Positions 4,260 through 60,274 of a stretch of DNA of 64,000 bases are shown piece after piece. The stretch spans positions 17,936,267 through 18,000,266 of the forward strand of contig NC_134509.1 of the NCBI RefSeq assembly GCF_027942865.1. The letters run 5' to 3'. The DNA is from Odontesthes bonariensis (taxonomy: Eukaryota; Chordata; Actinopteri; Atheriniformes; Atherinopsidae). Under the pieces are notes generated by a model. That model worked only from the letters and a program-made list of their open reading frames with translations. It searched no databases and was not told the origin of the DNA. Position numbers and translations under genes: made by a program. Positions within the stretch are counted from its first letter, which is position 1; each line of letters begins with the position of its first letter.

Positions 4260-7200
4260 GTACCGTATGTCTACATTTACCTTCACTGGAATCAGAGAGA
4301 CCAACGTGGGCCAACATGGAGTCTGTAAACTGGAACTTCATTAAAATGCTGGATGTTTTTATCCAAGTTAAACAGTGATTTTACTTTGATGGATTCTTCA
4401 TAACTGAACAAACTTTAGTGTTGTTAAACAGTCATTTCTGCCTGCAGCTTAATGAGCTGATTCAGACTCTCTGAAGCTGAGACTCTCTGTTCCTGATGGT
4501 GGAGATCATGAGGTTTCCATGCTCTGTGCAGATAACACAAGACAGTTTAGTTTTTACTCTACAATAGATGCTGTCAAGTGTTTCCTGTAAACTTTATGCT
4601 TTACATTTATCTGACTCTCACATTTAACTCAGCAACAAGTCGAAGGCAGAGAGAACAAACGGGCTAAAATAAGCAGAAAGAGTGTGATAATAAAACTCTT
4701 CCTCTTTCTCTGCTCAGTAAACTGAATCAGAGTTCTCTGGTTCACCACATCTCTGTTCCTTCACTGCATCCTGACACTCTATGATCTCCTCCCTCAGAGC
4801 AGATTGAGACTGACTGTGGAGAGCATGTGTTCATCTTCCAGTCTTCATCACACTGACCATGTGGAGCTGAGGGACCACTTTGTGTTTGGTTCCTGAGGCT
4901 GTTCGTTCTGACTGTGGGCTCTGATGTGCTCTGTGTTACAGCGGTTCAGGGTCAGAGTGACTGGAGTGTGACTTACAATCGTACATCGATCTGTGCTGTG
5001 AAAGGATCAACAGTGGAAATCAGCTGCACCTACACCCATCCATACGGAACATATTATAAAGTTATAAAAAGTTTCTGGTTCAGGGAAGGTGATGATAAAG
5101 CTCCTGTGGATCTGAGGACAGACTCGGACTACACAGGTCGTGTTCAGTATCTCTTTACAGGGAAAGTCTGCTCTCTGAGAATCACAGACCTGAGAGAGAG
5201 CGACTCAGCTCAGTACAAGTTTAGATTCATAACAAACCAACAAGTTGGAAGTTTTACTGGTTCACCTGGAGTCTTTTTGTCTGTCTCAGGTAACATTTTC
5301 TCTGAATCATCATTTGGCTCCAGATGCTTTTTGCATGTATGTAAGAACATAAATGACATTTCTGTTGTTTCTTCATGTGTTCAGCTCTCCAGGTGCAGGT
5401 GATCAGATCATCAGAGTACAAATGGGGTTATTACTGGGCAGAACTGAAATGTCACAGCAGTCGTCTGTCTGATCATCGTTCCTATGTCTGGACCAAGAAT
5501 GAGCAGATAATTCGGAGAGGAACATCTTTTCCTATTTCAACCTCATTTTATCCTGCAGACAGAGTTTCCTGTGCTGTAAAAGGATACAAGGAGTGTCCCT
5601 CTCCATCAGTGTGTGAGTTCACTCAACAGTCTTCCACCAACATTTCACCATCTGGATGAGCCTTAAACATATTGTACTGCAGCCTAACTTGTAGTTAGCT
5701 GCTGATTTAAGAAGAGACAGTTTTATTCAGAACTGGGTGTCAAACATGTCTGGATGTTCAGGAGATTCTAACCACCAACGACACAGAAAACCACCTTTAA
5801 GGTTTCAGATGCTTCCACAGACATAAAAAACTCACGTTATTAGATGTTAAATGAGTTCATGCTTTCTTCTACAGATGCTCCAAAGCTTCCCTCTGTGTCA
5901 GTGAGTCCCTCTGCTGAGATAGAGGAGGGCAGTTCAGTGACTCTGACCTGCAGCAGTGATGCTAACCCAGCAGCTCAATACACCTGGTACAAGGAGAAGA
6001 ATAATATTAAACTTCTCAATAAAGACTCACAGCTCTTCTTCAGCTCCATCCAGTCCTCTGACTCTGGACAGTATTACTGTTCAGCTACAAACCAGCTGGG
6101 GTGGAAGCGGTCAGGATACAGACGTATTGATGTGAAATGTGAGTAAAAGAAATGAGATTCATGAACATGTTTCCTTCAGCTCTGTCTGTTTAACACTGAC
6201 ATTCTGCTGCTGGACTTCACTGAGCAGCTGAAAGAGGAAGTTTTATTCCCAGTTGGCTCCCAGAGATAAATTCAGGAGATTCAAACCATCAGAGATCCTG
6301 AAAACCACCTCAAAGTTACACATGACTGAACAAACATGAGCACACATTAATCCAACCTGTGTCTCCTAGAAATGATGTTTCTATGCTGCTGATTTAATGA
6401 GTCAAACACATTTAGAAGCCTAATGTGGCAACATTCAGTGGATGGTAGGAAGGTCAACGTCTTTGTTCCCCTCACAGTTAAATTACAGAACAAACACCAC
6501 AAACCATTAAATGATCTCTGTGACAGTAAATCTGAAGAAGAATGTTCACAAAAGAAAACATCAAACACACATTGATCTCTTAGTTTGGACTCACCAAGAC
6601 TGTAATTTCAATAACTGTATTGATCCAGCTCTGAATATCAATAATCAGTCAGACCATCGCTGCAGACTTTCAGACACATTTCAGACATGTTTGTGTGATA
6701 TAATCTGACTGTGGTTACCTTCACAGATGTGGAGAAACGTTTAGTCCAGATGTGGCAGCAGCTGCAGTCAGTTTGATGAATTATGGAGACAGAAGTTTAT
6801 CTTTAAAGGATTTGATTTCTGCTCTTCTTCACTGCTCATTTAGCTCAGACTTTACTCATGTTAAAGACACACTGTGGACTTTTGCAGCTCTCTGTGCATC
6901 AGGAAGAGACTGGAAAGGAGGGTCCAATGCATTCACTAAATCACATCCAGATCATATTACAGTTTAACATACACATCATCTTCTAAAGAACATTTCATGT
7001 TTTCTCCTGCAGATGCTCCAAAGCTTCCCTCTGTGTCAGTGAGTCCCTCTGCTGAGATAAAGGAGGGCAGTTCAGTGACTCTGACCTGCAGCAGTGATGC
7101 TAACCCAGCAGCTCAATACACCTGGTACAAGGAGGATCAAACACTGCATCATGGAGCAGGAGGAAGCTACCGTTTCACCTCCATCAGCTCTGAGGATAAA

Positions 7201-16200: not shown

Positions 16201-18165
16201 TAGGGCGGCTGCTTAACCCACTACGCCACCGCCCGCATCCATCTGAACCTTAACTGGGTCCGGACAGTCTAAGCAGAGATCCCCAGACCTCCCTCTGCCC
16301 AGCCTCCTCCTCCAGCTCTTTCTGGGGGATACCGAGTTGTTCCCAGGCCAACCGAGGGATACAGTCTCTCCAGCAGCTCCTGAGTCAAACTCCTCCCGGT
16401 AGAACATGTCCGAAACACCTCAGTAGGCAGGCGTCCTGACCAGATACCTGAACCACATCAACTGGCTCTTTTCGATGCAGAGGGGCAGCAGCTCCACTCT
16501 GGGCCCCTCCTGGATGACCCAGCTCCTAAGGGTGAGCCCAGCGACCCTTTGGAGGGTCATGACCATCATGACCATCGGTCAGGGTTGGAATGTAGATCGA
16601 ATGGTGAATTGACAGCTTCACCTTCTCTCTTCACCACAACAGACCGGTCCAACACCAGCAGTACTGCAGATGCTGCCCCACTCCACCTGCCAATCTGCCG
16701 CTCCTTTATACCCCTACTCGTGAACAAGACTCTAAGATACTTAAAATCCCCCACTTCAGGCAGTGACTCATCCCCAGCCTGAAGTGGGCAGAAGATTTGG
16801 GCCAACAAACTGTCATTAGGAGCATAAACGCAAGCAACAGTCAGCCCTTTCCCCGACCCAAAGGTGCAGGCAGACCACCCTTTCATCCACCAGGGAAAAC
16901 TCCAACATTTGAGCCCACAAACGGGGAGCTGCAGGTCAGCCAACCCCCGCTTCCACCTTTCACCCAGGGCAGCTCCAGAGTGGATAGAAGTCCAGCCTCT
17001 GTCCAGTAGATTGGTTCCAGATAATAACACAACATTATTTCACTGAAACACTTTTATTGTTTCCTGGTTGGCTTCAGGCAGTAACATGACTGTGTTAGGG
17101 TCAGAAAACAATCATATTTAGGAATAAAATACATTCTTTTTACCAGGCGTTCATCAGCATCATCAACACCATTTTTCTCATGCTGTTGCTCTCACGACCA
17201 CTAGAGGTCTCCTGTTCTTTGAACATAATTATAGATAGATAGATAGATAAATAGATCAATCTATCAGGGGTTGTGTTTCTTGTTTTGTGGGTCCAATGAG
17301 GACAAACCTGCTGTCAAACTCGATGACGTGTCAGAGCCTGATTCTGATCCATGTTTGTTCAGGAGCAGTACAATCTACAGCTGCTGCAGTAACTGCTGCT
17401 GTTCTGCTGCCTCTCGTCTTCCTCTCTGCCTGTCTGTGGATCCGGTGAGCAGCTCTGTTACATTATTGTTCATTAAACTCATTCAGTCATGTTCAGAGTT
17501 CATATGTTCAGCTTTCGTTCATCATCGATTCTCCTGAGCAGAACAAAGAGGACCTCCAATGGATCATCTGAGCCTGAGCTCAGAGCAGACGGCAGGGAAC
17601 AGGTGAGGACACTTGTATCATTGTGGTAGAAAACTACAACATTTGGCTTTGGACTCATTATTCTGTTGTAGAACTAAAAACTGACTCCACTGAGAAGAGC
17701 CTCCCTTTGCTGTTTGCTGTCCTTCTTTAACTTCCATGTGTTTTACCACATGTGAAGTGTGTTGGTGGTCAGGGAAAGCCAGAGGAGCAGGATGAGCCTC
17801 AGTATGCCAGCGTCCACTTCAGCAACAACCAGGCAGATCCTATGTACTCCAACAACAGAGCAGCTCAGCCTCACAGACACTCAGAGGAAGTTACTGAGTA
17901 CGCTGTTGTCAGGTTTCACAGAGTCAGTCCAGCCCCAAGGTGAGCAGCTCCTCACACTCTGACATCACCACACAGACTCATTTCTGCTGCATCTTCCTGC
18001 TCTGTTGTTACGTTTTCATCATTCATGGGATTCAATGGGAATGACATCATTTACTGCTGTATCTGCACAGTCAGCTGATTTCTCTTTTTGTCTCCCTGAA
18101 CCAGAGCTGAGGAAACCAGAGAGGATGCATCCGTGTTGTACAGCACCATCAACAAAACCAGATGA
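4205..18165 (+). CDS. CD22-like/Siglec-type inhibitory receptor, copy A (12 exons)
   Basis: Exons: 4205-4259, 4942-5289, 5385-5612, 5875-6138, 7013-7273, 7378-7641, 12108-12368, 12473-12733, 17363-17444, 17542-17602, 17773-17939, 18105-18165. The joined length is 2313 bases, or 770 residues plus stop. All junctions agree in phase (Ig exons are 1-1). Domain order is signal peptide, V-set, Ig d2, five C2 domains, transmembrane helix, and a tail with four tyrosine motifs. Siglecs such as CD22 bind sialic acid on the B-cell surface and recruit SHP phosphatases through phosphorylated ITIMs; that role is inferred from the family. The start has Kozak-like context (GCAGCCATGA) and directly opens a hydrophobic leader. 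The seventh and ninth exons follow large transposon-filled introns. Expression and splicing are not shown by sequence alone. Confidence 0.9.
4942..5289 (+). CDS. Copy A exon 2: Siglec-type V-set Ig domain
   Basis: The exon follows acceptor TTACAG and ends at donor GTAACA. It encodes a V-set domain with an A-strand Cys (SICAVKG), a B-strand Cys (VEISCTY), a C-strand [14 protein letters not shown], an E-strand Cys ([10 protein letters not shown]), DSAQY before the F strand, and YKFRF. In Siglecs the B- and E-strand Cys form an intrasheet disulfide, and an F-strand Arg binds sialic acid; both are present here. An NRT glycosylation sequon precedes the first Cys. Copies B and C lack the E-strand Cys and the sequon. 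Confidence 0.9.
5385..5612 (+). CDS. Copy A exon 3: second Ig domain (d2)
   Basis: It starts after TTCAG with [10 protein letters not shown] and contains WAELKCHSS and [17 protein letters not shown], giving the Cys pair expected of a compact C2-type domain. The donor GTGAGT at 5613 gives phase 1 and joins to YAPKLP of the next exon. In Siglecs d2 packs against the V domain and is often linked to it by a disulfide. The extra Cys in KECPS could take part, but that is inference. Confidence 0.82.
5875..6138 (+). CDS. Copy A exon 4: C2 Ig domain 1
   Basis: With the split codon it begins [16 protein letters not shown], followed by [20 protein letters not shown] and [14 protein letters not shown]. 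It ends at donor GTGAGT. The protein is identical to that of exon 6, and the following intron is also nearly identical, which shows internal duplication or conversion. Confidence 0.9.
7013..7273 (+). CDS. Copy A exon 5: C2 Ig domain 2
   Basis: The same opening as exon 4, but with the distinct C-terminal half [17 protein letters not shown] and [11 protein letters not shown], then the NSS sequon. It ends at donor GTAAGT. It is paired with exon 7 as the second member of the duplicated module. Confidence 0.9.
7378..7641 (+). CDS. Copy A exon 6: C2 Ig domain 3
   Basis: The translation is identical to exon 4 across the whole domain. It is separated from exon 5 by a short intron of 104 bases. The next intron is expanded by nested transposons (8052-12060). 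Confidence 0.9.
9006..9246 (+). CDS. THAP zinc-finger fragment of the transposon (unit A)
   Basis: From [13 protein letters not shown] the frame shows the C2CH THAP pattern: CCVKNC, then FFRFPKW and [16 protein letters not shown] domains are DNA-binding modules of several DNA transposases and of host THAP proteins. A second piece at about 9580-9688 reads [13 protein letters not shown], the usual continuation, but joining it to the first by the visible GT and AG would give a stop. I therefore do not claim an intact spliced gene. Equivalent frames are at 36804-37046 and 61311-61553. Confidence 0.6.
10650..11093 (-). CDS. First exon of YqaJ/SWIM-type transposon gene (unit A)
   Basis: It starts [19 protein letters not shown] and contains [29 protein letters not shown], and [19 protein letters not shown], ending at a minus-strand GT donor (GTAAGG). 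The SHKSLELY and GWV pattern is typical of the N-terminal part of fish proteins with a SWIM-type finger and a YqaJ nuclease domain, as encoded by ISL2EU elements. The downstream exons are absent. The frame is open across 148 codons here and in unit C. Confidence 0.55.
11157..11903 (-). mobile_element. Harbinger-like element remnant (unit A)
   Basis: The edges resemble imperfect inverted ends (GGCGCATTCC on the left, GAATGCGGC on the right). A minus-strand frame reads [19 protein letters not shown], ending [11 protein letters not shown], which is like the N-terminus of PIF/Harbinger transposases. No DDE core remains. A 14-base direct duplication (GAACTGCGTTCTTA) near the right end is present in A and single in B. 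Confidence 0.5.
12108..12368 (+). CDS. Copy A exon 7: C2 Ig domain 4
   Basis: A near copy of exon 5. Differences include Lys to Glu (AEIEEGSS), Asn to Asp (SSDADP), HQGAGG for HHGAGG, and [11 protein letters not shown]. It follows the acceptor CTGCAG just 47 bases after the end of the transposon block. Confidence 0.9.
12473..12733 (+). CDS. Copy A exon 8: membrane-proximal C2 Ig domain 5
   Basis: It opens like the other C2 exons, then diverges: [20 protein letters not shown] and [15 protein letters not shown]. Three N-glycosylation sequons are visible (NFT, NYS, NST). It ends in phase 1 at GTGATC and joins in frame to the transmembrane exon 4.6 kb downstream. Confidence 0.9.
13366..15663 (-). 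mobile_element. L2-clade LINE in intron 8 (unit A)
   Basis: A minus-strand reverse transcriptase is open from about 14735 to 13686 and reads [44 protein letters not shown] and [22 protein letters not shown] is the catalytic motif of the polymerase. Upstream pieces ([31 protein letters not shown]) are in other frames. The 3' end at the left carries the fish L2 tail (TTTATCCAAAGCGACTTAC) and an ACATT repeat. A telomere-like insertion at 14761-14778 breaks the frame. Confidence 0.85.
14761..14778 (-). repeat. Telomere-like insertion in the L2 reverse transcriptase (unit A)
   Basis: AGGGTTAGGGTTAGGGTCC sits inside the coding sequence where L2 normally reads straight from LILLD into the AFDTVNH region. 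The surrounding GGTCC is doubled. The insertion shifts frame. The same site in unit B (42538-42555) has it too. Confidence 0.7.
16052..16237 (-). mobile_element. tRNA-derived SINE (unit A)
   Basis: Reverse orientation of the family seen at 2052: B box complement GACTCGAACC near 16155, A-box complement CTTAACCCACTACGCCACC near 16212-16230. It is inserted between the L2 and the LINE fragment in intron 8. Confidence 0.8.
16241..17025 (-). mobile_element. Internally deleted LINE fragment (unit A)
   Basis: A minus-strand frame begins like an APE endonuclease ([28 protein letters not shown]) and jumps directly into reverse-transcriptase C-terminal sequence ([32 protein letters not shown]). It belongs to the same broad family as the 8052 element, with the middle lost. 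Unit B equivalent: 44030-44814. Confidence 0.75.
17231..17256 (+). repeat. ATAG microsatellite
   Basis: About six ATAG/ATAA units in intron 8, just upstream of the transmembrane exon. Also at 45020-45045. Confidence 0.8.
17363..17444 (+). CDS. Copy A exon 9: transmembrane helix
   Basis: Read in the phase set by exon 8 it encodes [19 protein letters not shown] then LSACLWIR, about 23 hydrophobic residues with no charge and a basic stop-transfer end (R, then TKRT in the next exon). The lack of a buried Lys or Arg fits an inhibitory receptor rather than an adaptor-coupled activating one. The donor is GTGAGC. Confidence 0.85.
17542..17602 (+). CDS. Copy A exon 10: juxtamembrane cytoplasmic exon
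   Basis: A 61-base exon encoding [20 protein letters not shown]. The acceptor is GAGCAG and the donor GTGAGG. The basic start is typical directly inside the membrane. Confidence 0.8.
17773..17939 (+). CDS. Copy A exon 11: cytoplasmic tyrosine motifs
   Basis: It encodes three tyrosine motifs. EPQYASV is ITIM-like with Pro at -2. DPMYSNN has a YxN core that could suit a Grb2-type SH2 domain. VTEYAVV matches the ITSM pattern TxYxxV. The donor is GTGAGC. The acceptor could instead be the AG at 17756-17757, which would add five residues in frame. Copy B has DPLYSNI at the second tyrosine. Confidence 0.82.
18105..18165 (+). CDS. Copy A exon 12: last exon with ITIM
   Basis: It completes the split Arg codon and encodes [19 protein letters not shown] followed by TGA. 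VLYSTI fits the ITIM pattern [SIVL]xYxx[ILV]. Copy B has the same sequence at 45894-45954. Confidence 0.82.
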
Positions 18166-18491
18166 ACACAACAGGAATTTCTCAGCTGAAACTTTAAATT
18201 TTTTCTCTCTTTTTAAATCTCATTTGAGCTTAAATCTAATTGTTACATGTCATACATCTGCTGTAATGTTTATAGAGAGATTTAACTCATTTCAGGGTCT
18301 GTGTCTCTGACGTTTGAGTTGTTGACTTTTTTATTCTTATTTTATTGTATATTTATCATATCTTTTGGCACTTATTTTTATTGACTTATTATTACTTCTT
18401 GTACTTATTCGGTCTTTATTGCTCTTTTGTCTTTTATCTCCTCTTCTGTACAGCACTGTGGTCCACTGTGGTTATTTTAAGGTGCTGTAGA

Positions 18492-31118: not shown

Positions 31119-34100
31119 ATGAGTTTAACTGCAGCGCTGAGTGGATTTCTTGTCGTCCTTCTCTCGGTGTCAGGTACCGTATGTCTACATTTACCTTCAC
31201 TGGAATCAGAGAGACCAACGTGGGCCAACATGGAGTCTGTAAACTGGGGCTGAACCTCACTTTATGATATGATATGTTGAAATGGACGGATCAGAGCTGC
31301 GTGAAGAGGAACTTCATTAAAATGCTGGATGTTTTTATCCAAGTTAAACAGTGATTTTACTTTGATGGATTCTTCATAACTGAACAAACTTTAGTGTTGT
31401 TAAACAGTCATTTCTGCCTGCAGCTTTATGAGCTGATTCAGACTCTGAAGCTGAGACTCTCTGTTCCTGATGGTGGAGATCATGATGTTTCCATGCTCTG
31501 TGCAGATAACACAAGACAGTTTAGTTTTTACTCTACAATAGATGCTGTCAAGTGTTTCCTGTAAACTTTATGCTTTACATTTATCTGACTCTCACATTTA
31601 ACTCAGCAACAAGTCGAAGGCAGAGAGAACAAACGGGCTAAAATAAGCAGAAAGAGTGTGATAATAAAACTCTTCCTCTTTCTCTGCTCAGTAAACTGAA
31701 TCAGAGTTCTCTGGTTCACCACTTCTCTGTTCCTTCACTGCATCCTGACACTCTATGATCTCCTCCCTCAGAGCAGATTGAGACTGACTGTGGAGAGCAT
31801 GTGTTCATCTTCCAGTCTTCATCACACTGACCATGTGGAGCTGAGGGACCACTTTGTGTTTGGTTCCTGAGGCTGTTCATTCTGACTGTGGGCTCTGATG
31901 TGCTCTGTGTTACAGCGGTTCAGGGTCAGAGTGACTGGAGTGTGACTTACAGTCGTACATCGATCTGTGCTGTGAAAGGATCAACAGTGGAAATCAGCTG
32001 CACCTACACCCATCCAGACAGAAAAAATGATAAAGTTATTGAAGTTATAGAAAGATTCTGGTTCAGGGAAGGTGATGATAAAGCTCCTGTGGATCTGATG
32101 ACAGACTCGGACTACACAGGTCGTGTTCAGTATTTCTTTACAGGGAATGTCTGGTCTCTGAGAATCAAAGACCTGAGAGAGAGCGACTCAGCTCAGTACA
32201 AGTTCAGATTCATAACAAACCAACAAGGAGGACGTTTTACTGGTTCACCTGGAGTCTTTTTGTCTGTCTCAGGTAACATTTTCTCTGAATCATCATTTGG
32301 CTCCAGATGCTTTTTGCATGTATGTAAGAACATAAATGACATTTCTGTTGTTTCTTCATGTGTTCAGCTCTCCAGGTGCAGGTGATCAGATCATCAGAGT
32401 ACAAACGGGGTTATTACTGGGCAGAACTGAAATGTCACAGCAGTCGTCTGTCTGATCATCGTTCCTATGTCTGGACCAAGAATGAGCAGATAACTCTGAG
32501 AGGAACATCTTCTACTATTTCAACCTCATTTTATCCTGCAGACAGAGTTTCCTGTGCTGTAAAAGGATACAAGGAGTGTCCCTCTCCATCAGTGTGTGAG
32601 TTCACTCAACAGTCTTCCACCAACTTTTCACCATCTAGATGAGCCTTTAACATATTGTACTGCAGCCTAACTAGTAGTTACACAGTTGCTGATTTAAGAA
32701 GAGACAGTTTTATTCAGAACTGGGTGTCAAACATGTCTGGATGTTCAGGAGATTCAAACCACCAATGACACAGAAAACCACCTTTAAGGTTTCAGATGCT
32801 TCCACAGACATAAAAATCTCACGTTATTAGATGTTAAATGTGTTCATGTTTTCTCCTGCAGATGCTCCAAAGCTTCCCTCTGTGTCAGTGAGTCCCTCTG
32901 CTGAGATAGAGGAGGGCAGTTCAGTGACTCTGACCTGCAGCACTGATGCTAACCCAGCAGCTCAATACACCTGGTACAAGGAGAAGAATAATATTAAACT
33001 TCTCAATAAAGACTCACAGCTCTTCTTCAGCTCCATCCAGTCCTCTGACTCTGGACAGTATTACTGTTTAGCTGCAAACCAGCTGGGGCGGAAGTGGTCA
33101 GGATACAGACGTATTGATGTGAAATGTGAGTAAAAGAAATGAGATTCATGAACATGTTTCCTTCAGCTCTGTCTGTTTAACACTGACATTCTGCTGCTGG
33201 ACTTCACTGAGCAGCTGAAAGAGGAAGTTTTATTCCCAGTTGGCTCCCAGAGATAAATTCAGGAGATTCAAACCATCAGAGATCCTGAAAACCACCTCAA
33301 AGTTACACATGACTGAACAAACATGAGCACACATTAATCCAACCTGTGTCTCCTAGAAATGATGTTTCTATACTGCTGATTTAATGAGTCAAACACATTT
33401 AGAAGCCTCATGTGGCAACATTCAGTGGATGGTAGGAAGGTCAACGTCTTTGTTCCCCTCACAGTTATATTACAGAACAAACACCACAAACCATCAAATG
33501 ATCTCTGTGACAGTAAATCTGAAGAAGAATGTTCACAAAAGAAAACATCAAACACACATTGATCTCTTAGTTTGGACTCACCAGGACTGTAATATCAATA
33601 ACTGTATTGATCCAGCTCTGAATATCAATAATCAGTCAGACCATCGCTGCAGACTTTCAGACACATTTCAGACATGTTTGTGTGATATAATCTGACTGTG
33701 GTTACCTTCACAGATGTGGAGAAACGTTTAGTCCAGATGTGGCAGCAGCTGCAGTCAGTTTGATGAATTATGGAGACAGAAGTTTATCTTTAAAGGATTT
33801 GATTTCTGCTCTTCTTCACTGCTCATTTAGCTCAGACTTACTCATGTTAAAGACACACTGTGGACTTTTGCAGCTCTCTGTGCATCAGGAAGAGACTGGA
33901 AAGGGGGGTCCCATGCATTCACTAAATAACATCCAGATCATATTACAGTTTAACAAACACATCATCTTCTAATGAACATTTCATGTTTTCTCCTGCAGAT
34001 GCTCCAAAGCTTCCCTCTGTGTCAGTGAGTCCCTCTGCTGAGATAAAGGAGGGCAGTTCAGTGACTCTGACCTGCAGCAGTGATGCTAACCCAACAGCTA

Positions 34101-37100
34101 AATACACCTGGTACAAGGAGGATCAAACACTGCATCATGAAGCAGGAGGAAGTTACCGTTTCACCTCCATCAGCTCTGAGGATAAAGGGATCTACTACTG
34201 CAAGTGTGAGAATCAGCATGGATGGATCAACTCTTCATCTCTCTTCTTAAATGTTCAGTGTAAGTCACATGAGGCTGTTTTGTTTTATGAAACAAAAGTC
34301 CTCCAATAATTTAGAATATTTCTAATAATTTCAGCGATGTGTTTCTGCATACATGTTCTCCAGATGCTCCAAAGCTTCCCTCTGTGTCAGTGAGTCCCTC
34401 TGCTGAGATAGAGGAGGGCAGTTCAGTGACTCTGACCTGCAGCAGTGATGCTAACCCAGCAGCTCAATACACCTGGTACAAGGAGAAGAATAATATTAAA
34501 CTTCTCAATAAAGACTCACAGCTCTTCTTCAGCTCCATCCAGTCCTCTGACTCTGGACAGTATTACTGTTCAGCTGCAAACCAGCTGGGGTGGAAGCAGT
34601 CAGGATACAGACGTATTGATGTGAAATGTGAGTAAAAGAAATGAGATTCATGAACATGTTTCCTTCAGCTCTGTCTGTTTAACACTGACATTCTGCTGCT
34701 GGACTTCACTGAGCAGCTGAAAGAGGAAGTTTTATTCCCAGTTGGCTCCCAGAGATAAATTCAGGAGATTCAAACCATCAGAGATCCTGAAAACCACCTC
34801 AAAGTTACACATGACTGAACAAACATGAGCACACATTAATCCAACCTGTGTCTCCTAGTATTATGTTTCTATGCTGCTGATTTAATGAGTCAAACACATT
34901 TAGAAGCATCATGTGGCAACATTCAGTGGATGGTAGGAAGGTCAACGTCTTTGTTCCCCTCACAGTTAAATTACAGAACAAACACCACAAACCATTAAAT
35001 GATCTCTGTGACAGTATATCTGAAGAAGAATGTTCACAAAAGAAAACATCAAACACACATTGATCTCTTAGTTTGGACTCACCAGGACTGTAATATCAAT
35101 AACTCGGGTCGGGAATGAGATCCTTCCCCAAGTGGAGGAGTTCAAGTATCTCGGGGTCTTGTTCACGAGTGAGGGACGAATGGAACAGGAGATTGACAGA
35201 CGGATCGGTGCGGCGTCTGCAGTGATGCGGGCTCTGCACCGGCCCGTCGTGGTGAAGAAGGAGCTGAGCCAGAAGGCGAAGCTCTCGATTTACCGGTCAA
35301 TCTATGTTCCTACCCTCACCTATGGTCACGAGCTGTGGGTAGTGACCGAAAGAACGAGATCGCGAATACAAGCGGCCGAAATGAGTTTCCTCCGCAGGGT
35401 GTCTGGGCTCTCCCTTAGAGATAGGGTGAGAAGCTCGGTCATCCGGGAGGGGCTCGGAGTAGAACCGCTGCTCCTCCGCATCGAGAGGAGTCAGATGAGG
35501 TGGCTCGGGCATCTGGTGAGAATGCCTCCTGGACGCCTCCCCGGTGAGGTGTTCCGGGCCCGTCCCACTGGGAGGAGGCCCCGGGGAAGACCCAGGACAC
35601 GTTGGAGAGACTATGTCTCTCGGCTGGCCTGGGAACGCCTCGGGGTCCCCCCAGAAGAGCTGGAGGAAGTGGCCGGGGACAGGGACGTCTGGGTCTCTTT
35701 GCTCAAGCTGCTGCCCCCGCGACCCGATCCCCGGACCAGCGGAAGATAATGGATGGATGGATGGATGTATTGATCCAGCTCTGAATATAAAAAATCAGTC
35801 AGACCATCGCTGCAGACTTTCAGACACATTTCAGACATGTTTGTGTGATCCCTGCAGAGGAAGCGCATTTTCGACCGTTTGTATCCGCAATCTCGTTCTT
35901 TCGGTCACTACCCACAGCTCGTGGGTGAGGGTAGGAACGTAGATTCGACGACGCTAGCAGAACCACATCATCCGCAAAAAGCTGAGACCCGATTCTGAGG
36001 TTGCCAAAACGCCCTGGCTGCACCTAGAAATTCTGTCCATAAAAAGATTATGAACAGAATTGTTGACAAAGGGCAGCCCTGAGGGAGTCCAACCCTCACC
36101 GGTAACACATCCGACTTACTGCCGGTAATACGGACCAAACTCTGACACCGGTAATCCAGAGACCGAACAGCCCCTATCTAGGGGTCCGGCACTCCATACT
36201 CCCGGAGCACCCCCCCACAGGACTTCCCGAGGGACACGGTCGAACGACCACTCTGATTCAGATGGGGGGGGGGGCCGTTCCTACCAATCACCCCCCTCCA
36301 GGTCTCACTGTCATTGCCCACGTGAGCATTGAAGTCCCCCAGCAGGACGAGGGAGTCTCCTGCAGGAGCACTCTCCAGTGCCTCCTCCAGGGACTCCAAA
36401 AAGTGTGGGTACTCTGAACTGCTGTTTGGTGCATAAGCACAAACAACAGTCAGGAACCGTCCCCCCACCCGAAGGCGGAGGGAGGCTACCCTCTCGTCAA
36501 CCGGGGTAAACCCCAATGTGCAGGCACACAGCCGGGGGGCAATGAGTATGCCCACACTCGCTCTGCGCCTCTCACCACTGGCAGCTCCAGAGTGAAAGAG
36601 AGTCCAACCCTTCTCAAGGAGACTGGTTCCGGAGCCCAAGCCGTGCTATTGAGAATGAGGAGTTGTCGTCATAGTACAGAGCCCCGCCCCTATCCGCCAT
36701 GTTGGCAGAATGCTAGCGAGAAAACGCCATTCTCTCCGTTCGTTTACAGTGTACGCGTGTGTTTTTAAATCAGTAAGTTTAAACAGTGCGGAATTGCAAG
36801 AACATGCCTGGAAATCACTGCTGTGTGAAGAACTGTTCCAGTACCTCACATAATACGTTTGGGAAACATAGGAACAACGAAAAACATTTTTTTCGGTTTC
36901 CTAAATGGATGCAGCATCAGGGAGAGCAGGCGTCTGACCTGACGAGGAGACGCCGGGTTGCCTGGCTGGCTGGACCTTACTTTCGATTGCACCCCTCCGT
37001 CGATGAGAGTGTGTTCTCTACATTTTCACTTGGGTACGTTCTCTAAAAATCTCTTTATGTTGTTGTCTCTTAAAGCTACAAAGTTACTTTATGTTGTTGC

Positions 37101-40100: not shown

Positions 40101-43100
40101 AGTATGGATGGATCAACTCTTCATCTCTCTTCTTAAATGTTCAGTGTAAGTCACATGAGGCTGTTTTGTTTTATGAAACAAAAGTCCTCCAATAATTTAG
40201 AATATTTCTAATAATTTCAGTGATGTGTTTCTGCATACATGTTCTCCAGATGCTCCAAAGCTTCCCTCTGTGTCAGTGAGTCCCTCTGCTGAGATAGAGG
40301 AGGGCAGTTCAGTGACTCTGACCTGCAGCAGTGATGCTAACCCAGCAGCTCAATACACCTGGTACAAGGAGGAGGAAGAGTCCCCAAAAGCTTCAGGACA
40401 GAACTTCACCATCGCTGACGTCAGACTTGAACACAGTGGAAATTATTCCTGTGAAGCTCAGAACACAAGAGGAAGTCAGAACTCCACAGTTCTTCTGATG
40501 GTTGTTCCAGGTGATCTTTTATATTCAGTTAATATTTCATGTGGTTTTAATGACTGATTGGCTGTGATGAGGTCATGTGACTCGGGTCGTTTTATTTCAC
40601 AGTACCTAGAAGGTGCATGACCTCCTTCCAGATAATCTTCTTATAAAGTTCACATTCTACCAAAACTGTAAATATTCTGTAAATAACTATAATTTCATCA
40701 TGTTTGATTTTCATATCTGAAAATCTGTGATGCTGCTTTTCTGTAAAAACATCTATTGTTTATCCAGAAGAATCACTTCAACATTTGATCCTCCTGAAGC
40801 TTCATCCATTTTCTTTTCCCAGTTAAACTGAAGTTGTTTTTAAATATCTGATTTGAAGAACTGAGGGTTGAACAGACTGTAAACTCTCCTGAGGTAAATG
40901 TGTGATCTGTAACCTTCAGCTGCTTATATAATATTAATTTGGCTTTTTACTGAATTATCCAAGATATGAATCCACAATGAAAATAATCAGCCACATCCCA
41001 ATAGTGAGAAATAAGATTTTATAATTACAGCAGGTAATGAAATATATTGTCTGATGGTTTGTGTTCCAGATTATTTTAATGTAGTCTTTGCATGTGGTCC
41101 TGTAACACTCAGTCAAGTTAAGGTTCCTCCAATGGACACGAGAACATTACATTACATTACATTACGGTCATTTTGCAGACGCTTTTATCCAAAGCGACTT
41201 ACAATAAGTGTGTTCCACATCGGTAGGCAAAAGAACTTCAGGTCACAAGAAATCATAAGTGCATTTCCTTCCAAAACCAAACAGCTAAGAGCATAACTAG
41301 TGCCAGAGTAAATGCGATAAGTTAGGTACCTAGACAAATGGGAAGACAATTTAGAAAACAAAGACAATTTAGGAAACAAATAAGTGCGTAAGGAGCTAGG
41401 ACGAAACAGGTGATGTCCTAAGAGGGCGGATCAGGGTAGTGTTTCTGTGAAGAGGTGGGTTTTCAGCCTGCGGCGAAAGATGGGCAGCGACTCAGCTGTC
41501 CTGACATCAGTCGGGAAATCGTTCCACCATCGGGGTGCCAGAACAGAGAAAAGCCGTGACCGTGTCGATCGTGCGCAGGGACCGCTGAGTGACGGGGCAG
41601 CCAGGCGCCTGGAGAGCGAAGTGGTCGGGCGGGGGTGTAGGGCTTGACCATAGCCTGGAGGTATGAAGGAGCTGTTCCTTCCACTGCCCTGTAGGCGAGC
41701 ACCAGAGTCTTAAACTGGATGCGAGCAGCTACGGGGAGTCAGTGTAGAGAGCGGAGAAGGGGAGTGGTGTGGGAGAACTTGGGGAGGTTGAACACCAGAC
41801 GAGCAGCAGCTTTCTGAACAAGCTCCAGAGGTCTGATGGCAGAAGCCGGGGCGCCAGCAAGGAGGGAGTTGCAGTAGTCCAGGCGGGAGATGACAAGAGC
41901 CTGGATGAGCTCCTGTGCTGCCTTGTCGGTGAGGAAGGGGCGAATCCTCCGGATGTTGTAGAGGAGGAATCGGCAGGAACTGGTCACTGATGCGATGTTT
42001 GGCGAGAACGACAGTTGGTCGTCCAGGGTCACACCCAGATTCCTCGCGGTCCGAGTTGACGTCACCACGGAGTCATCCATGGTGATGGCCAGATCTCGGA
42101 ATGGGCAGCCGTTCCCCGAGAGAAACACCAGCTCAGTCTTGTCCAGGTTGAGCTTAAGGTGGTGCATCGACATCCACCCTGAGATGTCTGCCAGGCACGC
42201 AGCAATGCGTGCTTCCACTTGGGTGTCAGAAGGGGGAAAAGACAGAATCAGCTGGGTGTCGTCTGCATAGCAGTGGTAGGAAAAGTTATGGGAGTGGATG
42301 ACAGAACCAAGAGATGATGTGTAGAGGAAGAAAAGAAGAGGACCCAAGACCGAACGTTGGGGAACCCCAGTGGTGAGCCTACGTGGCTTCGACACAGATC
42401 CTCTCAGTGTGACCTGGTAGAAGCGATCTGTCAGGTAGGATGAGAACATAGAGAGTGCAGAGCCAGAAACCCCCATTCCCTCCAGGGTAGAGAGAAGGAT
42501 GTCGTGGTTCACTGTGTCAAATGCTGCAGACAGGTCCAGGGTTAGGGTTAGGGTCCAGGAGAATCAGGACAGAGGAGAGAGAGTTAGCTCGAGCAGTTTG
42601 GAGTGATTCAGTTACTGCTAGAAGGGCCGTCTCAGTTGAGTGGCCCACCTTGAACCCGGACTGGTGGGGGTCCAAGAGGTTGTTCTGGTGGAGGTAAGAG
42701 GACAGTTGTTTAGCACGTTCAAGAGTTTTGTTAAGAAAGGGTAGAAGGAATACCGGTCTGTGGGTCAAGAGCTCTCTGAAGGGTCAAGAGCTGGTTTCTT
42801 TAGAAGAGGAGTGACTCTGGCAGTCCTGAAAGCAGAAGGAAAAGAGCCTGATGTCAAAGACGTGTTAATGAGGTGGGTCAGGTAAGGAAGAAGATCAGGG
42901 GCAGCAGAATGAAGGAGAGGGGAAGGGAATGGGTCAAGGGAACATGTGGTGGGGCAGCTGGATGTTACAAGGTGAAGGACCTGATTTGCAGAGAGGGGAG
43001 AGAAGTGGGGCAGAGAGGGAGGTGAGGGAGAAGGTGGTAGGGAGGGAGGAGTGGGAGAGCGACAAGTGTGGGTGGTGTGGACAGCTGGGGGTTGAGGGAA

Positions 43101-45954
43101 GGAAGATCAGATATCGTTAACCTTCTTGTCAAAGAAGTCGGCGAAATCGTCAGGGAGGAGGAGGGAAGAGGGGTTTGGGGTTGGAGGAGGGCCGAGAAAG
43201 TTTGAAAGAGTTTTTTGGGGTTGGAAGCAGAAGTTTGAATTTTGTTACAGAAGAAGGCAGTTTTTGCAGCAGAGAGAGAGGAGGAAAAAGTGGAAAGCAA
43301 GGACTGGAAGGCAAGAAGGTCCTCAGGGTTTTTACTTTTCCTCCATTTGCGCTCAGCCACCATCAAGCTCCACCTCTCAGTACGCACTTAGTCCGACAGC
43401 CAAGGGGCAGGTGGAGCTGAGCGTGCAGGCCTGGAGGCGCTAGAACAGTGCCTGGTGAAGATAAGGTCCAGTATGTAACATAAATAGTTTGTTTGATAGA
43501 CCCTTAAATACGACTCTTTCTGGTGTCCTGTAAAGTACCGCCCCTACAAGCCGCAGGAGGGAAATACGACTTCTTTAAGTGTTTCCACATCAGAGCAGAC
43601 GTTGTTCTCTTTCATTTAAAAAGCTACAAAGTCCTCATAAGAAGGAAGGAGGGTGGTTGGATGTAGCAGCGGCACAGACTGCTTTCAATCATGCACCTCT
43701 ATGTGAGGTGAGATCAAGACCAACATACGACAACTCTTTCCTCTTCTCTGACTTCCATTCAGTCTATAATATAGCATCATATTACATCATCCATCCATTT
43801 GAACCTTTTTTTTTTATATATATATTTTTTGGGGCTTTTTTATGCCTTTAATGGATAGACAGTTGGAGAGAGACAGGAAACAGGGGGCAGAGAGATGGTG
43901 AAGACATGCAGCAAAGGGCCATCCGGTGCGGGACTCGAACCGGGGCCAGCTGCAGCGAGGACTGTAGCCTCTGTACATGGGGCGGCTGCTTAACCCACTA
44001 CGCCACCGCCCGCCCGCCCGCCCCCATCCATCTGAACCTTAACTGGGTCCGGACAGTCTAAGCAGAGATCCCCAGACCTCCCTCTGCCCAGCCTCCTCCT
44101 CCAGCTCTTTCTGGGGGATACCGAGTTGTTCCCAGGCCAACCGAGGGATACAGTCTCTCCAGCAGCTCCTGAGTCAAACTCCTCCCGGTAGAACATGTCC
44201 GAAACACCTCAGTAGGCAGGCGTCCTGACCAGATACCTGAACCACATCAACTGGCTCTTTTCGATGCAGAGGAGCAGCAGCTCCACTCTGGGCCCCTCCT
44301 GGATGACCCAGCTCCTAAGGGTGAGCCCAGCGACCCTTTGGAGGGTCATGACCATCATGACCATCGGTCAGGGTTGGAATGTAGATCGAATGGTGAATTG
44401 ACAGCTTCACCTTCTCTCTTCACCACAACAGACCGGTCCAACACCAGCAGTACTGCAGATGCTGCCCCACTCCACCTGCCAATCTGCCGCTCCTTTATAC
44501 CCCCACTCGTGAACAAGACTCTAAGATACTTAAAATCCCCCACTTCAGGCAGTGACTCATCCCCAGCCTGAAGTGGGCAGAAGATTTGGGCCAACAAACT
44601 GTCATTAGGAGCATAAACGCAAGCAACAGTCAGCCCTTTCCCCGACCCAAAGGTGCAGGCAGACCACCCTTTCATCCACCAGGGAAAACTCCAACATTTG
44701 AGCCCACAAACGGGGAGCTGCAGGTCAGCCAACCCCCGCTTCCACCTTTCACCCAGGGCAGCTCCAGAGTGGATAGAAGTCCAGCCTCTGTCCAGTAGAT
44801 TGGTTCCAGATAATAACACAACATTATTTCACTGAAACACTTTTATTGTTTCCTGGTTGGCTTCAGGCAGTAACATGACTGTGTTAGGGTCAGAAAACAA
44901 TCATATTTAGGAATAAAATACATTCTTTTTACCAGGCGTTCATCAGCATCATCAACACCATTTTTCTCATGCTGTTGCTCTCACGACCACTAGAGGTCTC
45001 CTGTTCTTTGAACATAATTATAGATAGATAGATAGATAAATAGATCAATCTATCAGGGGTTGTGTTTCTTGTTTTGTGGGTCCAATGAGGACAAACCTGC
45101 TGTCAAACTCGATGACGTGTCAGAGCCTGATTCTGATCCATGTTTGTTCAGGAGCAGTAAAATCTACAGCTGCTGCAGTAACTGCTGCTGTTCTGCTGCC
45201 TCTCGTCTTCCTCTCTGCCTGTCTGTGGATCCGGTGAGCAGCTCTGTTACATTATTGTTCATTAAACTCATTCAGTCATGTTCAGAGTTCATATGTTCAG
45301 CTTTCGTTCATCATCGATTCTCCTGAGCAGAACAAAGAGGACCTCCAATGGATCATCTGAGCCTGAGCTCAGAGCAGACGGCAGGGAACAGGTGAGGACA
45401 CTTGTATCATTGTGGTAGAAAACTACAACATTTGGCTTTGGACTCATTATTCTGTTGTAGAACTAAAAACTGACTCCACTGAGAAGAGCCTCCCTTTGCT
45501 GTTTGCTGTCCTTCTTTAACTTCCATGTGTTTTACCACATGTGAAGTGTGTTGGTGGTCAGGGAAAGCCAGAGGAGCAGGATGAGCCTCAGTATGCCAGC
45601 GTCCACTTCAGCAACAACCAGGCAGATCCTCTGTACTCCAACATCAGAGCAGCTCAGCCTCACAGACACTCAGAGGAAGTTACTGAGTACGCTGTTGTCA
45701 GGTTTCATAGAGTCAGTCCAGCCCCAAGGTGAGCAGCTCCTCACACTCTGACATCACCACACAGACTCATTTCTGCTGCATCTTCCTGCTCTGTTGTTAC
45801 GTTTTCATCATTCATGGGATTCAATGGGAATGACATCATTTACTGCTGTATCTGCACAGTCAGCTGATTTCTCTTTTTGTCTCCCTGAACCAGAGCTGAG
45901 GAAACCAGAGAGGATGCATCCGTGTTGTACAGCACCATCAACAAAACCAGATGA
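31119..45954 (+). CDS. CD22-like/Siglec-type inhibitory receptor, copy B (12 exons)
   Basis: Exons: 31119-31173, 31916-32272, 32368-32595, 32862-33125, 33999-34259, 34364-34627, 39885-40145, 40250-40510, 45152-45233, 45331-45391, 45562-45728, 45894-45954. The joined length is 2322 bases, or 773 residues plus stop, with all phases consistent. Domain order is as in copy A. Differences from A: the V domain is three residues longer, lacks the NRT sequon and has Trp for the E-strand Cys ([10 protein letters not shown]). Exons 4 and 6 are not identical to each other (CSTDANP versus [18 protein letters not shown] versus [11 protein letters not shown]). Exon 8 ends LLMVVP. The transmembrane exon has AVKS for AVQS. 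The tail has DPLYSNI for DPMYSNN. No stop or frameshift is seen, so it is probably a working paralogue. Confidence 0.9.
31916..32272 (+). CDS. Copy B exon 2: V-set domain without E-strand Cys
   Basis: It retains [28 protein letters not shown] and the Siglec-type Arg. TGC is replaced by TGG in the E strand (NVWSLRI), so the usual B-to-E disulfide cannot form. The region before FWFREGDD is [13 protein letters not shown] against [10 protein letters not shown] in A: longer and more charged. SRT replaces the NRT sequon. The translation is identical to copy C. Confidence 0.88.
35107..35767 (+). mobile_element. 5'-truncated LINE in intron 6 (unit B)
   Basis: An open frame at 35132-35749 reads [79 protein letters not shown] and ends [11 protein letters not shown]. 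This is the C-terminal region after the reverse transcriptase. It finishes with an ATGG repeat tail. It is inserted between AATAACT and TATTGATCC, a site seen uninterrupted in the first module at about 33600. No target duplication is evident. Unit C has it at 59614-60274; unit A lacks it. Confidence 0.85.
36646..38951. mobile_element. ISL2EU-like DNA transposon (unit B)
   Basis: Same inverted ends as unit A. The THAP frame is at 36804-37046, with [11 protein letters not shown] and [12 protein letters not shown]. The minus-strand YqaJ-type exon is frameshifted in this copy (see 38445-38887). Confidence 0.6.
38445..38887 (-). pseudogene. YqaJ/SWIM-type exon, frameshifted (unit B)
   Basis: The same exon as 10650-11093, but TATTCGTCTCTG in A and C is TATTCTCTCTG here, a one-base loss near 38815. 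The N-terminal [19 protein letters not shown] then continues out of frame. This is a private mutation of B. Confidence 0.75.
38951..39683 (-). mobile_element. Harbinger-like remnant (unit B)
   Basis: Counterpart of 11157-11903, with the [14 protein letters not shown] reading on the minus strand. The GAACTGCGTTCTTA motif near the right end is single rather than doubled. Confidence 0.5.
41143..43440 (-). mobile_element. L2-clade LINE in intron 8 (unit B)
   Basis: Counterpart of 13366-15663. The reverse transcriptase is interrupted by a private stop near 41739 (the Trp of HWLPVAARI becomes TGA). The telomere-like insertion is at 42538-42555, also on the reverse strand. Confidence 0.85.
43829..44023 (-). 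mobile_element. tRNA-derived SINE (unit B)
   Basis: Counterpart of 16052-16237, with an extra CGCC-rich expansion at its right edge (CCGCCCGCCCGCCCGCC). Confidence 0.8.
44030..44814 (-). mobile_element. Internally deleted LINE fragment (unit B)
   Basis: Counterpart of 16241-17025, with the same APE-to-reverse-transcriptase jump. Confidence 0.75.
45562..45728 (+). CDS. Copy B exon 11: cytoplasmic tyrosine motifs
   Basis: It encodes EPQYASV, DPLYSNI and VTEYAVV. Compared with copy A, Leu replaces Met at -1 and Ile replaces Asn at +3 of the second tyrosine. This motif therefore has the hydrophobic +3 residue needed for an ITIM-like SH2 contact while keeping YxN. Confidence 0.82.
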
Positions 45955-55625: not shown

Positions 55626-58600
55626 ATGAGTTTAACTGCAGCGCTGAGTGGATTTCTTGTCGTCCTTCTCTCGGTGTCAGGTACCGTATGTCTACATTTA
55701 CCTTCACTGGAATCAGAGAGACCAACGTGGGCCAACATGGAGTCTGTAAACTGGGGCTGAACCTCACTTTATGATATGATATGTTGAAATGGACGGATCA
55801 GAGCTGCGTGAAGAGGAACTTCATTAAAATGCTGGATGTTTTTATCCAAGTTAAACAGTGATTTTACTTTGATGGATTCTTCATAACTGAACAAACTTTA
55901 GTGTTGTTAAACAGTCATTTCTGCCTGCAGCTTTATGAGCTGATTCAGACTCTGAAGCTGAGACTCTCTGTTCCTGATGGTGGAGATCATGATGTTTCCA
56001 TGCTCTGTGCAGATAACACAAGACAGTTTAGTTTTTACTCTACAATAGATGCTGTCAAGTGTTTCCTGTAAACTTTATGCTTTACATTTATCTGACTCTC
56101 ACATTTAACTCAGCAACAAGTCGAAGGCAGAGAGAACAAACGGGCTACAATAAGCAGAAAGAGTGTGATAATAAAGCTCTTCCTCTTTCTCTGCTCAGTA
56201 AACTGAATCAGAGTTCTCTGGTTCACCACTTCTCTGTTCCTTCACTGCATCCTGACACTCTATGATCTCCTCCCTCAGAGCAGATTGAGACTGACTGTGG
56301 AGAGCATGTGTTCATCTTCCAGTCTTCATCACACTGACCATGTGGAGCTGAGGGACCACTTTGTGTTTGGTTCCTGAGGCTGTTCGTTCTGACTGTGGGC
56401 TCTGATGTGCTCTGTGTTACAGCGGTTCAGGGTCAGAGTGACTGGAGTGTGACTTACAGTCGTACATCGATCTGTGCTGTGAAAGGATCAACAGTGGAAA
56501 TCAGCTGCACCTACACCCATCCAGACAGAAAAAATGATAAAGTTATTGAAGTTATAGAAAGATTCTGGTTCAGGGAAGGTGATGATAAAGCTCCTGTGGA
56601 TCTGATGACAGACTCGGACTACACAGGTCGTGTTCAGTATTTCTTTACAGGGAATGTCTGGTCTCTGAGAATCAAAGACCTGAGAGAGAGCGACTCAGCT
56701 CAGTACAAGTTCAGATTCATAACAAACCAACAAGGAGGACGTTTTACTGGTTCACCTGGAGTCTTTTTGTCTGTCTCAGGTAACATTTTCTCTGAATCAT
56801 CATTTGGCTCCAGATGCTTTTTGCATGTATGTAAGAACATAAATGACATTTCTGTTGTTTCTTCATGTGTTCAGCTCTCCAGGTGCAGGTGATCAGATCA
56901 TCAGAGTACAAACGGGGTTATTACTGGGCAGAACTGAAATGTCACAGCAGTCGTCTGTCTGATCATCGTTCCTATGTCTGGACCAAGAATGAGCAGATAA
57001 CTCTGAGAGGAACATCTTCTACTATTTCAACCTCATTTTATCCTGCAGACAGAGTTTCCTGTGCTGTAAAAGGATACAAGGAGTGTCCCTCTCCATCAGT
57101 GTGTGAGTTCACTCAACAGTCTTCCACCAACTTTTCACCATCTAGATGAGCCTTTAACATATTGTACTGCAGCCTAACTAGTAGTTACACAGTTGCTGAT
57201 TTAAGAAGAGACAGTTTTATTCAGAACTGGGTGTCAAACATGTCTGGATGTTCAGGAGATTCAAACCACCAATGACACAGAAAACCACCTTTAAGGTTTC
57301 AGATGCTTCCACAGACATAAAAATCTCACGTTATTAGATGTTAAATGTGTTCATGTTTTCTCCTGCAGATGCTCCAAAGCTTCCCTCTGTGTCAGTGAGT
57401 CCCTCTGCTGAGATAGAGGAGGGCAGTTCAGTGACTCTGACCTGCAGCACTGATGCTAACCCAGCAGCTCAATACACCTGGTACAAGGAGAAGAATAATA
57501 TTAAACTTCTCAATAAAGACTCACAGCTCTTCTTCAGCTCCATCCAGTCCTCTGACTCTGGACAGTATTACTGTTTAGCTGCAAACCAGCTGGGGCGGAA
57601 GTGGTCAGGATACAGACGTATTGATGTGAAATGTGAGTAAAAGAAATGAGATTCATGAACATGTTTCCTTCAGCTCTGTCTGTTTAACACTGACATTCTG
57701 CTGCTGGACTTCACTGAGCAGCTGAAAGAGGAAGTTTTATTCCCAGTTGGCTCCCAGAGATAAATTCAGGAGATTCAAACCATCAGAGATCCTGAAAACC
57801 ACCTCAAAGTTACACATGACTGAACAAACATGAGCACACATTAATCCAACCTGTGTCTCCTAGAAATGATGTTTCTATACTGCTGATTTAATGAGTCAAA
57901 CACATTTAGAAGCCTCATGTGGCAACATTCAGTGGATGGTAGGAAGGTCAACGTCTTTGTTCCCCTCACAGTTATATTACAGAACAAACACCACAAACCA
58001 TCAAATGATCTCTGTGACAGTAAATCTGAAGAAGAATGTTCACAAAAGAAAACATCAAACACACATTGATCTCTTAGTTTGGACTCACCAGGACTGTAAT
58101 ATCAATAACTGTATTGATCCAGCTCTGAATATCAATAATCAGTCAGACCATCGCTGCAGACTTTCAGACACATTTCAGACATGTTTGTGTGATATAATCT
58201 GACTGTGGTTACCTTCACAGATGTGGAGAAACGTTTAGTCCAGATGTGGCAGCAGCTGCAGTCAGTTTGATGAATTATGGAGACAGAAGTTTATCTTTAA
58301 AGGATTTGATTTCTGCTCTTCTTCACTGCTCATTTAGCTCAGACTTACTCATGTTAAAGACACACTGTGGACTTTTGCAGCTCTCTGTGCATCAGGAAGA
58401 GACTGGAAAGGGGGGTCCCATGCATTCACTAAATAACATCCAGATCATATTACAGTTTAACAAACACATCATCTTCTAATGAACATTTCATGTTTTCTCC
58501 TGCAGATGCTCCAAAGCTTCCCTCTGTGTCAGTGAGTCCCTCTGCTGAGATAAAGGAGGGCAGTTCAGTGACTCTGACCTGCAGCAGTGATGCTAACCCA

Positions 58601-59134: not shown

Positions 59135-59613
59135 GTGAGTAAAAGAAATGAGATTCATGAACATGTTTCCTTCAGCTCTGTCTGTTTAACACTGACATTC
59201 TGCTGCTGGACTTCACTGAGCAGCTGAAAGAGGAAGTTTTATTCCCAGTTGGCTCCCAGAGATAAATTCAGGAGATTCAAACCATCAGAGATCCTGAAAA
59301 CCACCTCAAAGTTACACATGACTGAACAAACATGAGCACACATTAATCCAACCTGTGTCTCCTAGAATTATGTTTCTATGCTGCTGATTTAATGAGTCAA
59401 ACACATTTAGAAGCATCATGTGGCAACATTCAGTGGATGGTAGGAAGGTCAACGTCTTTGTTCCCCTCACAGTTAAATTACAGAACAAACACCACAAACC
59501 ATTAAATGATCTCTGTGACAGTATATCTGAAGAAGAATGTTCACAAAAGAAAACATCAAACACACATTGATCTCTTAGTTTGGACTCACCAGGACTGTAA
59601 TATCAATAACTCG

Positions 59614-60274
59614 GGTCGGGAATGAGATCCTTCCCCAAGTGGAGGAGTTCAAGTATCTCGGGGTCTTGTTCACGAGTGAGGGACGAATGGAACAGGAGAT
59701 TGACAGACGGATCGGTGCGGCGTCTGCAGTGATGCGGGCTCTGCACCGGCCCGTCGTGGTGAAGAAGGAGCTGAGCCAGAAGGCGAAGCTCTCGATTTAC
59801 CGGTCAATCTATGTTCCTACCCTCACCTATGGTCACGAGCTGTGGGTAGTGACCGAAAGAACGAGATCGCGAATACAAGCGGCCGAAATGAGTTTCCTCC
59901 GCAGGGTGTCTGGGCTCTCCCTTAGAGATAGGGTGAGAAGCTCGGTCATCCGGGAGGGGCTCGGAGTAGAACCGCTGCTCCTCCGCATCGAGAGGAGTCA
60001 GATGAGGTGGCTCGGGCATCTGGTGAGAATGCCTCCTGGACGCCTCCCCGGTGAGGTGTTCCGGGCCCGTCCCACTGGGAGGAGGCCCCGGGGAAGACCC
60101 AGGACACGTTGGAGAGACTATGTCTCTCGGCTGGCCTGGGAACGCCTCGGGGTCCCCCCAGAAGAGCTGGAGGAAGTGGCCGGGGACAGGGACGTCTGGG
60201 TCTCTTTGCTCAAGCTGCTGCCCCCGCGACCCGATCCCCGGACCAGCGGAAGATAATGGATGGATGGATGGATG
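59614..60274 (+). mobile_element. 5'-truncated LINE in intron 6 (unit C)
   Basis: Identical in position and reading frame to 35107-35767 of unit B, ending in the same ATGG repeats. Confidence 0.85.

Follow-up and report, generated by a model that had tools for sequence, protein, structure and literature searches.

A tryptophan at the E-strand cysteine position in CD22-like receptor copies of a tandem cluster in Odontesthes bonariensis

Introduction

Most Siglec V domains, Siglec-15 excepted, are marked by a disulfide between strands B and E, which widens the gap between the sheets. Excerpts from the structural literature describe an intradomain bond, Cys41-Cys101, in CD33, in which Arg119 is the sialic-acid binder (PMC13220637), and a sialic-acid-binding V domain in Siglec-15 whose sheets are joined by C64-C142 and not by the usual pair, and in which R143A abolishes binding (PMC10264397). 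Here we analyse a window of 64,000 nt (the whole stretch of DNA under study) from the fish Odontesthes bonariensis (contig NC_134509.1; C4:17936267-18000266), searched together with its own assembly (945 Mb, 187 contigs). The locus is best read as a young tandem cluster holding four near-identical CD22-like (Siglec-type) inhibitory receptor genes, copies A, B, C and D, three of which have tryptophan (Trp) at the position of the E-strand cysteine (Cys).

Other excerpts report that a V-domain Cys is bonded to a Cys of the first C2 domain in all Siglecs except Siglec-15 (PMC13299484); these V-to-D2 bonds are C39-C167 in CD22 (PMC5624926) and C37-C165 in MAG (PMC5150538). Human CD22 carries a glycan on N101 at the d1/d2 junction, and mutation of this residue disrupted expression (PMC5624926, in excerpt). 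For the fish CD22 sequences considered in a further excerpt, R120 is conserved, nearly all the other contact residues of the human protein are absent, and glycan-binding data are called for (PMC7226832). Within the portion of the open-licence Siglec literature covered, no Trp at the E-strand Cys position is described, and among the 15 of 19 papers listed for Cys mutants of Siglec V domains, the titles and abstract openings contain nothing on the E-strand Cys. A text search of open-licence literature for four peptide strings gave no match, and the main text of a tilapia CD22 paper (PMC12837193) mentions neither cysteine, disulfide, arginine nor tryptophan.

Results

The V exon of copy A reads KVCSLRI, with a TGC codon for Cys76 (in the frame opening VQGQSDWS), and those of copies B and C read NVWSLRI, with a TGG codon for Trp79 (Table 1). 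These two forms had been reported in the original prediction and are borne out by the codons, read directly, which differ by a single base: C at 5171 in A, G at 32154 in B and at 56661 in C. We place the residue in strand E because the whole exon is homologous, and not on the short motif, which by itself gave 3 matches within the window (0.97 expected; 3 reached in 8/100 shuffles) and is not above chance. phmmer aligned the copy A Cys with the Cys in CSLSI of CD33 and the copy B Trp with the Cys in CTLSI of Siglec-7, and the spacing between E-strand Cys and F-strand Arg in copy A, 18 residues (C76-R94), equals that of CD33 Cys101-Arg119. From alignment and strand order, the CD33 Cys pair would correspond to strands B and E. 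AlphaFold2 models put Cys76 and Trp79 in the same strand (residues 75-80 in A, 78-83 in B).

A fourth tandem copy, D (L002), lies 16 kb beyond the window (V exon at C4:18016646, or 80380-80727 in window-relative numbering) and reads KVWSLRI; the closest paralogue, copy E (L003) on contig C16 (V exon C16:5530641-5530988), reads EVCSLRI. The V exons of B and C are identical, so the Trp in these two copies represents one event, and two independent losses of the Cys in B and C were rejected. The residue call made earlier for B and C therefore stands, but not its use as two observations, the second being D. An assembly error was likewise rejected: Trp is found in three separately placed copies, and because the contexts differ (NVWS in B/C, KVWS in D) it is not a slip at a single place. 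A genome search with the copy B V domain (12 matches) detected no additional close copy.

Along 17,853 aligned bases the B and C units share 99.8% identity, and adjoining stretches are 99.8% (2,553 bases) and 98.7% (2,305 bases) identical. At about 0.2% divergence, these units (window 30345-64000) may reflect a very recent duplication, or possibly one haplotype retained twice in the assembly.

Two genome searches returned V-like exons at 15 and 13 places, 7 of them shared, which gives at least 21 distinct exons; in 7/21 only part of the exon was matched (L014, L036-L039, L046 and L048). Of those found, 16 have Cys as the E-strand residue, 3 have Trp (B, C and D), L009 has His and L036 has Arg. 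Judging from these sequences, Cys is the ancestral residue, because it is carried by paralogue E as well as by the 16 exons, which agrees with the earlier proposal that the A form came first. The question whether Trp could itself be common and ancient was looked at inside this genome, where Trp, at 3/21, was rejected as a common family state and was seen only in the cluster, with B and D differing by 1.2% in noncoding sequence. Pattern searches of general genome contigs (58 matches) and viral contigs (12), neither of them fish collections, yielded no confirmed case.

The F-strand Arg is present in 16/21 exons, including all Trp copies (KFRF in A-D), and is replaced by Lys (L007), Ser (L009), Gly (L013) or Tyr (L014, L046). 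L009 (C4:33140477-33140776) has also lost the B-strand Cys. L036 (C6:31094650-31095012) keeps both B-strand Cys and F-strand Arg, with a Cys five residues beyond the E-strand site, and is the genome's best Pfam Ig_CD22 match. Copy E keeps its Cys and Arg but not the strand-A Trp (NGSRMTY vs SDWSVTY); like L006 and L007 (YHC), it has one more Cys ahead of strand E (YLC).

An N-glycosylation sequon, NC[ST], overlies the E-strand Cys in 11/21 exons. It is replaced by VC[ST] in A, E, L006 and L007 and by VWS in B, C and D (A 5163-5174, B 32146-32157). Since A, E, L006 and L007 already have VC[ST] with the Cys in place, the order that these sequences indicate for the cluster's branch is that the glycan site was lost first and the disulfide later.

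Counting Cys residues in V and D2, copy A has six (C17, C28 and C76, plus three in D2), copies B/C have five (C17 and C28, plus three), D has two plus three, and E has four in V, including the extra one, plus three. Both members of the B-E pair are found in A and E but only the B-strand Cys in B, C and D, which in this one Siglec hallmark fall short. A Siglec-15-type F-strand Cys beside the Arg is also absent from B/C/D (F strand YKFRF). With the E-strand Cys gone and none in strand F, these copies can make no bond from strand B to strand E or F; the aligned exons thus sustain the claim that B and C retain the F-strand Arg while losing the disulfide, and extend it to D.

In all five copies one V Cys (C17) and one D2 Cys are also spare, the D2 position differing between A/B/C (CHSSR with KEC) and D/E (CHSSC with EEF). 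C17 and the spare D2 Cys could form a V-D2 bond, whose likely D2 partner has probably moved within the family, and by subtraction C28 would then be partnerless in B, C and D. Such an unpaired Cys28 might be rewired to another chain or to a D2 Cys, for instance in a covalent dimer, as the drop from six to five V plus D2 Cys in B/C and D and the shifted D2 positions just described would allow. We regard this as improbable: by its position the B-strand Cys should be a core residue, and no V Cys has been gained in B/C/D relative to A.

The gene models of all five copies are open from the signal exon, through V, D2 and C2 domains, to the exon for the transmembrane segment, as are the C2 exons that fell outside the donor-pattern match (two each in A-C, one in E; 261 bases each). 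No copy has a gap in the tail exon, which encodes PQYASV and TEYAVV (C and E have TEYAAV instead), and the last exon carries VLYSTI, then a stop, in A-D (in E the motif is MLYSTI), forming a tail with motifs like the immunoreceptor tyrosine-based inhibitory motif (ITIM). These genes have the transmembrane segment and ITIM-like tail expected of a CD22-like Siglec; a pseudogene explanation was rejected on the open frames and tails.

The V domains of A and B match Pfam PF24518 Ig_CD22 at 41.7 and 33.8 bits, above the cut-off of 27, and score 24.3 and 20.6 with the general V-set model, just under its cut-off of 26. The F-strand Arg, which makes the sialic-acid salt bridge in Siglecs, and the strand-A Trp, which by analogy with Siglecs may touch sialic acid, are kept in A, B, C and D. 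AlphaFold2 predicts the same Siglec-like V fold for the Trp form, with confidence of 88.6 for A and 90.7 for B, a measure of limited worth for judging one substitution. VIA-align ranked Siglecs first for both models, the top solved fold being the Siglec-1/sialoadhesin V domain; Foldseek gave antibodies and a T-cell receptor and no Siglec among the 50 matches listed, and a profile search of the PDB placed the polymeric immunoglobulin (Ig) receptor above CD22 and other Siglecs.

These observations bear on the possibility that B, C and D have a destabilised V domain that binds no ligand, the redundant copies drifting as weak or decoy receptors. Trp removes the only possible intradomain disulfide, the Ig_CD22 score falls from A to B, and the two other V-like exons without the E-strand Cys include L009, which lacks B-strand Cys and F-strand Arg as well. 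Against this, B, C and D are open with tails, their F-strand Arg is kept and model confidence does not drop, and we consider such degeneration rather unlikely, if a serious contender.

Within 4631-6200 (A coordinates), with E as outgroup, 31 shared-derived sites fall into groups of 10 (A+D), 7 (B/C+D) and 14 (A/B/C) that no single tree can accommodate together. Among V-exon sites, 5043-5072 (the B-C loop) and 5250 are common to A and D, and 5171 (Trp) and 5185 (Thr to Lys) to B/C and D. Because D thus groups with B/C for the Trp and with A for the loop, parts of the V exon have probably been passed from copy to copy, most simply in short gene-conversion tracts, the Trp having a single origin. 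A runs test gave p 0.002, but collapsing like neighbours within 3, 5, 10 and 15 bases raised this to 0.06, 0.15, 0.46 and 0.88; the case for exchange is based on the incompatible groupings, and recurrent mutation at both of these sites around the Trp would be a less likely alternative.

Between A and B the V exon has changed faster than its surroundings. Over 4332-7997, A and B differ at 17/348 positions in the V exon, 16/1024 in other exons and 30/2294 in noncoding sequence (V vs noncoding, p 5e-5; other exons vs noncoding, p 0.63). Nei-Gojobori counts within V, nonsynonymous/synonymous, were 15/2 for A-B (p 0.38), 8/2 for A-D (p 1.0) and 15/0 for B-D (p 0.048), and the three comparisons with E gave p 0.66-0.83. 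In two comparisons, A-B (p 4e-5) and B-D (p 3e-5), nonsynonymous changes in V were denser than changes in noncoding sequence; in A-D (p 0.13) this was not so. The D2 and D3 exons of D differ from A and B by 5-7%, vs 1.2-1.6% in noncoding sequence, which points to the import of older tracts, so the V excess is no clean proof of selection.

The Trp might also be a neutral passenger, tolerated with no effect on ligand recognition and carried by exchange with neighbours. The block shared with D is small (two sites, 5171 and 5185) and the fold is predicted unchanged, which fits this reading; the retention of Cys in 16/21 exons and the V excess in two of the three comparisons speak against it, and we think it very improbable.

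The positions of the features are given in Table 1. Long open frames within receptor introns (13686-14786 and 41739-42563 on the minus strand, 35072-35749 and 59579-60256 on the plus strand) look like reverse-transcriptase fragments of retroelements. Upstream of the window, from about 30 kb to 2 kb before it (C4:17906267 to about 17934118), lies a direct-repeat array with offsets of about 1.2 kb and up and matches of 3.5 to 10.7 kb at 96-99.6% identity, which ends shortly before the cluster.

Table 1. Receptor features of copies A, B and C, in window coordinates
Feature	Position	Strand	Basis or remark
Copy A signal-peptide exon, 18 residues	4205..4259	+	Gene model; matched in all five copies
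Copy A V-domain exon; Cys codon 5169-5171, F-strand Arg codon 5223-5225	4942..5289	+	PF24518 Ig_CD22 1.8e-10
Copy A second Ig exon (D2); its third Cys lies in GYKEC	5385..5612	+	Gene model
Copy A transmembrane exon	17363..17444	+	Gene model
Copy A cytoplasmic tail exons (PQYASV, TEYAVV, VLYSTI then stop), approximate borders	17731..18170	+	
Copy B signal-peptide exon	31119..31173	+	Gene model
Copy B V-domain exon, 3-residue insertion in B-C loop vs A	31916..32272	+	
Copy B B-strand Cys28 codon TGC, no E-strand partner	31999..32001	+	
Copy B E-strand Trp79 codon TGG	32152..32154	+	Residue 79 of 118-residue frame
Copy B F-strand Arg97 codon AGA, kept	32206..32208	+	
Copy B second Ig exon (D2)	32368..32595	+	Gene model
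Copy B transmembrane exon	45152..45233	+	Gene model
Copy C signal-peptide exon	55626..55680	+	Gene model
Copy C V-domain exon, same as B; Trp codon 56659-56661	56423..56779	+	
Copy C D2 exon	56875-57102		

Discussion

Our results lead us to lean, with some reserve, towards a folded V domain that lacks an intradomain disulfide and whose ligand preference would be altered rather than abolished. We favour this reading over degeneration because the F-strand Arg and strand-A Trp are kept, the lost core bond being on the opposite sheet, and Siglec-15 binds without the usual pair, if with another bond. A C-to-G change produced the Trp, which together with a nearby Thr-to-Lys change is common to B/C and D and not found in A. 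In the domain as we picture it, the indole would fill core space beside the unpaired B-strand Cys, a V-D2 bond would still tether the domain, and the sialic-acid site on the C-C'-F-G sheet would persist with changed geometry. The swap probably loosens or retunes a sugar-binding domain that otherwise looks intact. Many other amino acids have also changed in this fast-evolving V exon, so the Trp would most likely be part of a diversification of ligand recognition between copies.

The original prediction allowed that ligand binding may be altered or lost. Altered binding in the Trp copies is possible. Loss is unsupported, given open genes with tails, the conserved Arg and strand-A Trp, an unchanged predicted fold and the Siglec-15 precedent: a Siglec that binds sialic acid with another disulfide means that loss of binding is not implied here. 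A bolder version, in which a lectin V domain works with no intradomain disulfide at all and Cys and Trp forms are traded by gene conversion, keeping rigid and loosened versions in one fish, seems to us doubtful.

The Trp copies represent a new, if modest, variation within a receptor family that is already known. They make A (Cys) and D (Trp), with 8 nonsynonymous V differences in all, a natural near-isogenic pair for the role of the disulfide in folding and in glycan specificity. A tandem immune-receptor family, as this cluster shows, is able to reshuffle even a core residue.

Among known systems, Siglec-15 has the pairs C64-C142 and C95-C104, and B/C/D differ in that they can form no such intradomain pair. 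In lacking the E-strand Cys they resemble L009 and L036 of the same genome, which unlike them have His and Arg at the site. Siglec-1/sialoadhesin, the first-ranked solved fold for both models, keeps the E-strand Cys; copy A and the C16 copy E share it, and B, C and D do not. The first V Cys here, residue 17, falls in strand A' ahead of the turn, unlike C39 of human CD22, which lies at the start of strand B. The cluster further departs from CD22 in the E-strand Trp of B, C and D and in the absence from A-E of the N-glycan sequon (human N101). It shares with Siglec-2/CD22 and teleost CD22-like receptors an N-terminal V domain with the F-strand Arg, strand-A Trp and an Ig_CD22 match, C2-type Ig domains, a transmembrane exon and an ITIM-like tail.
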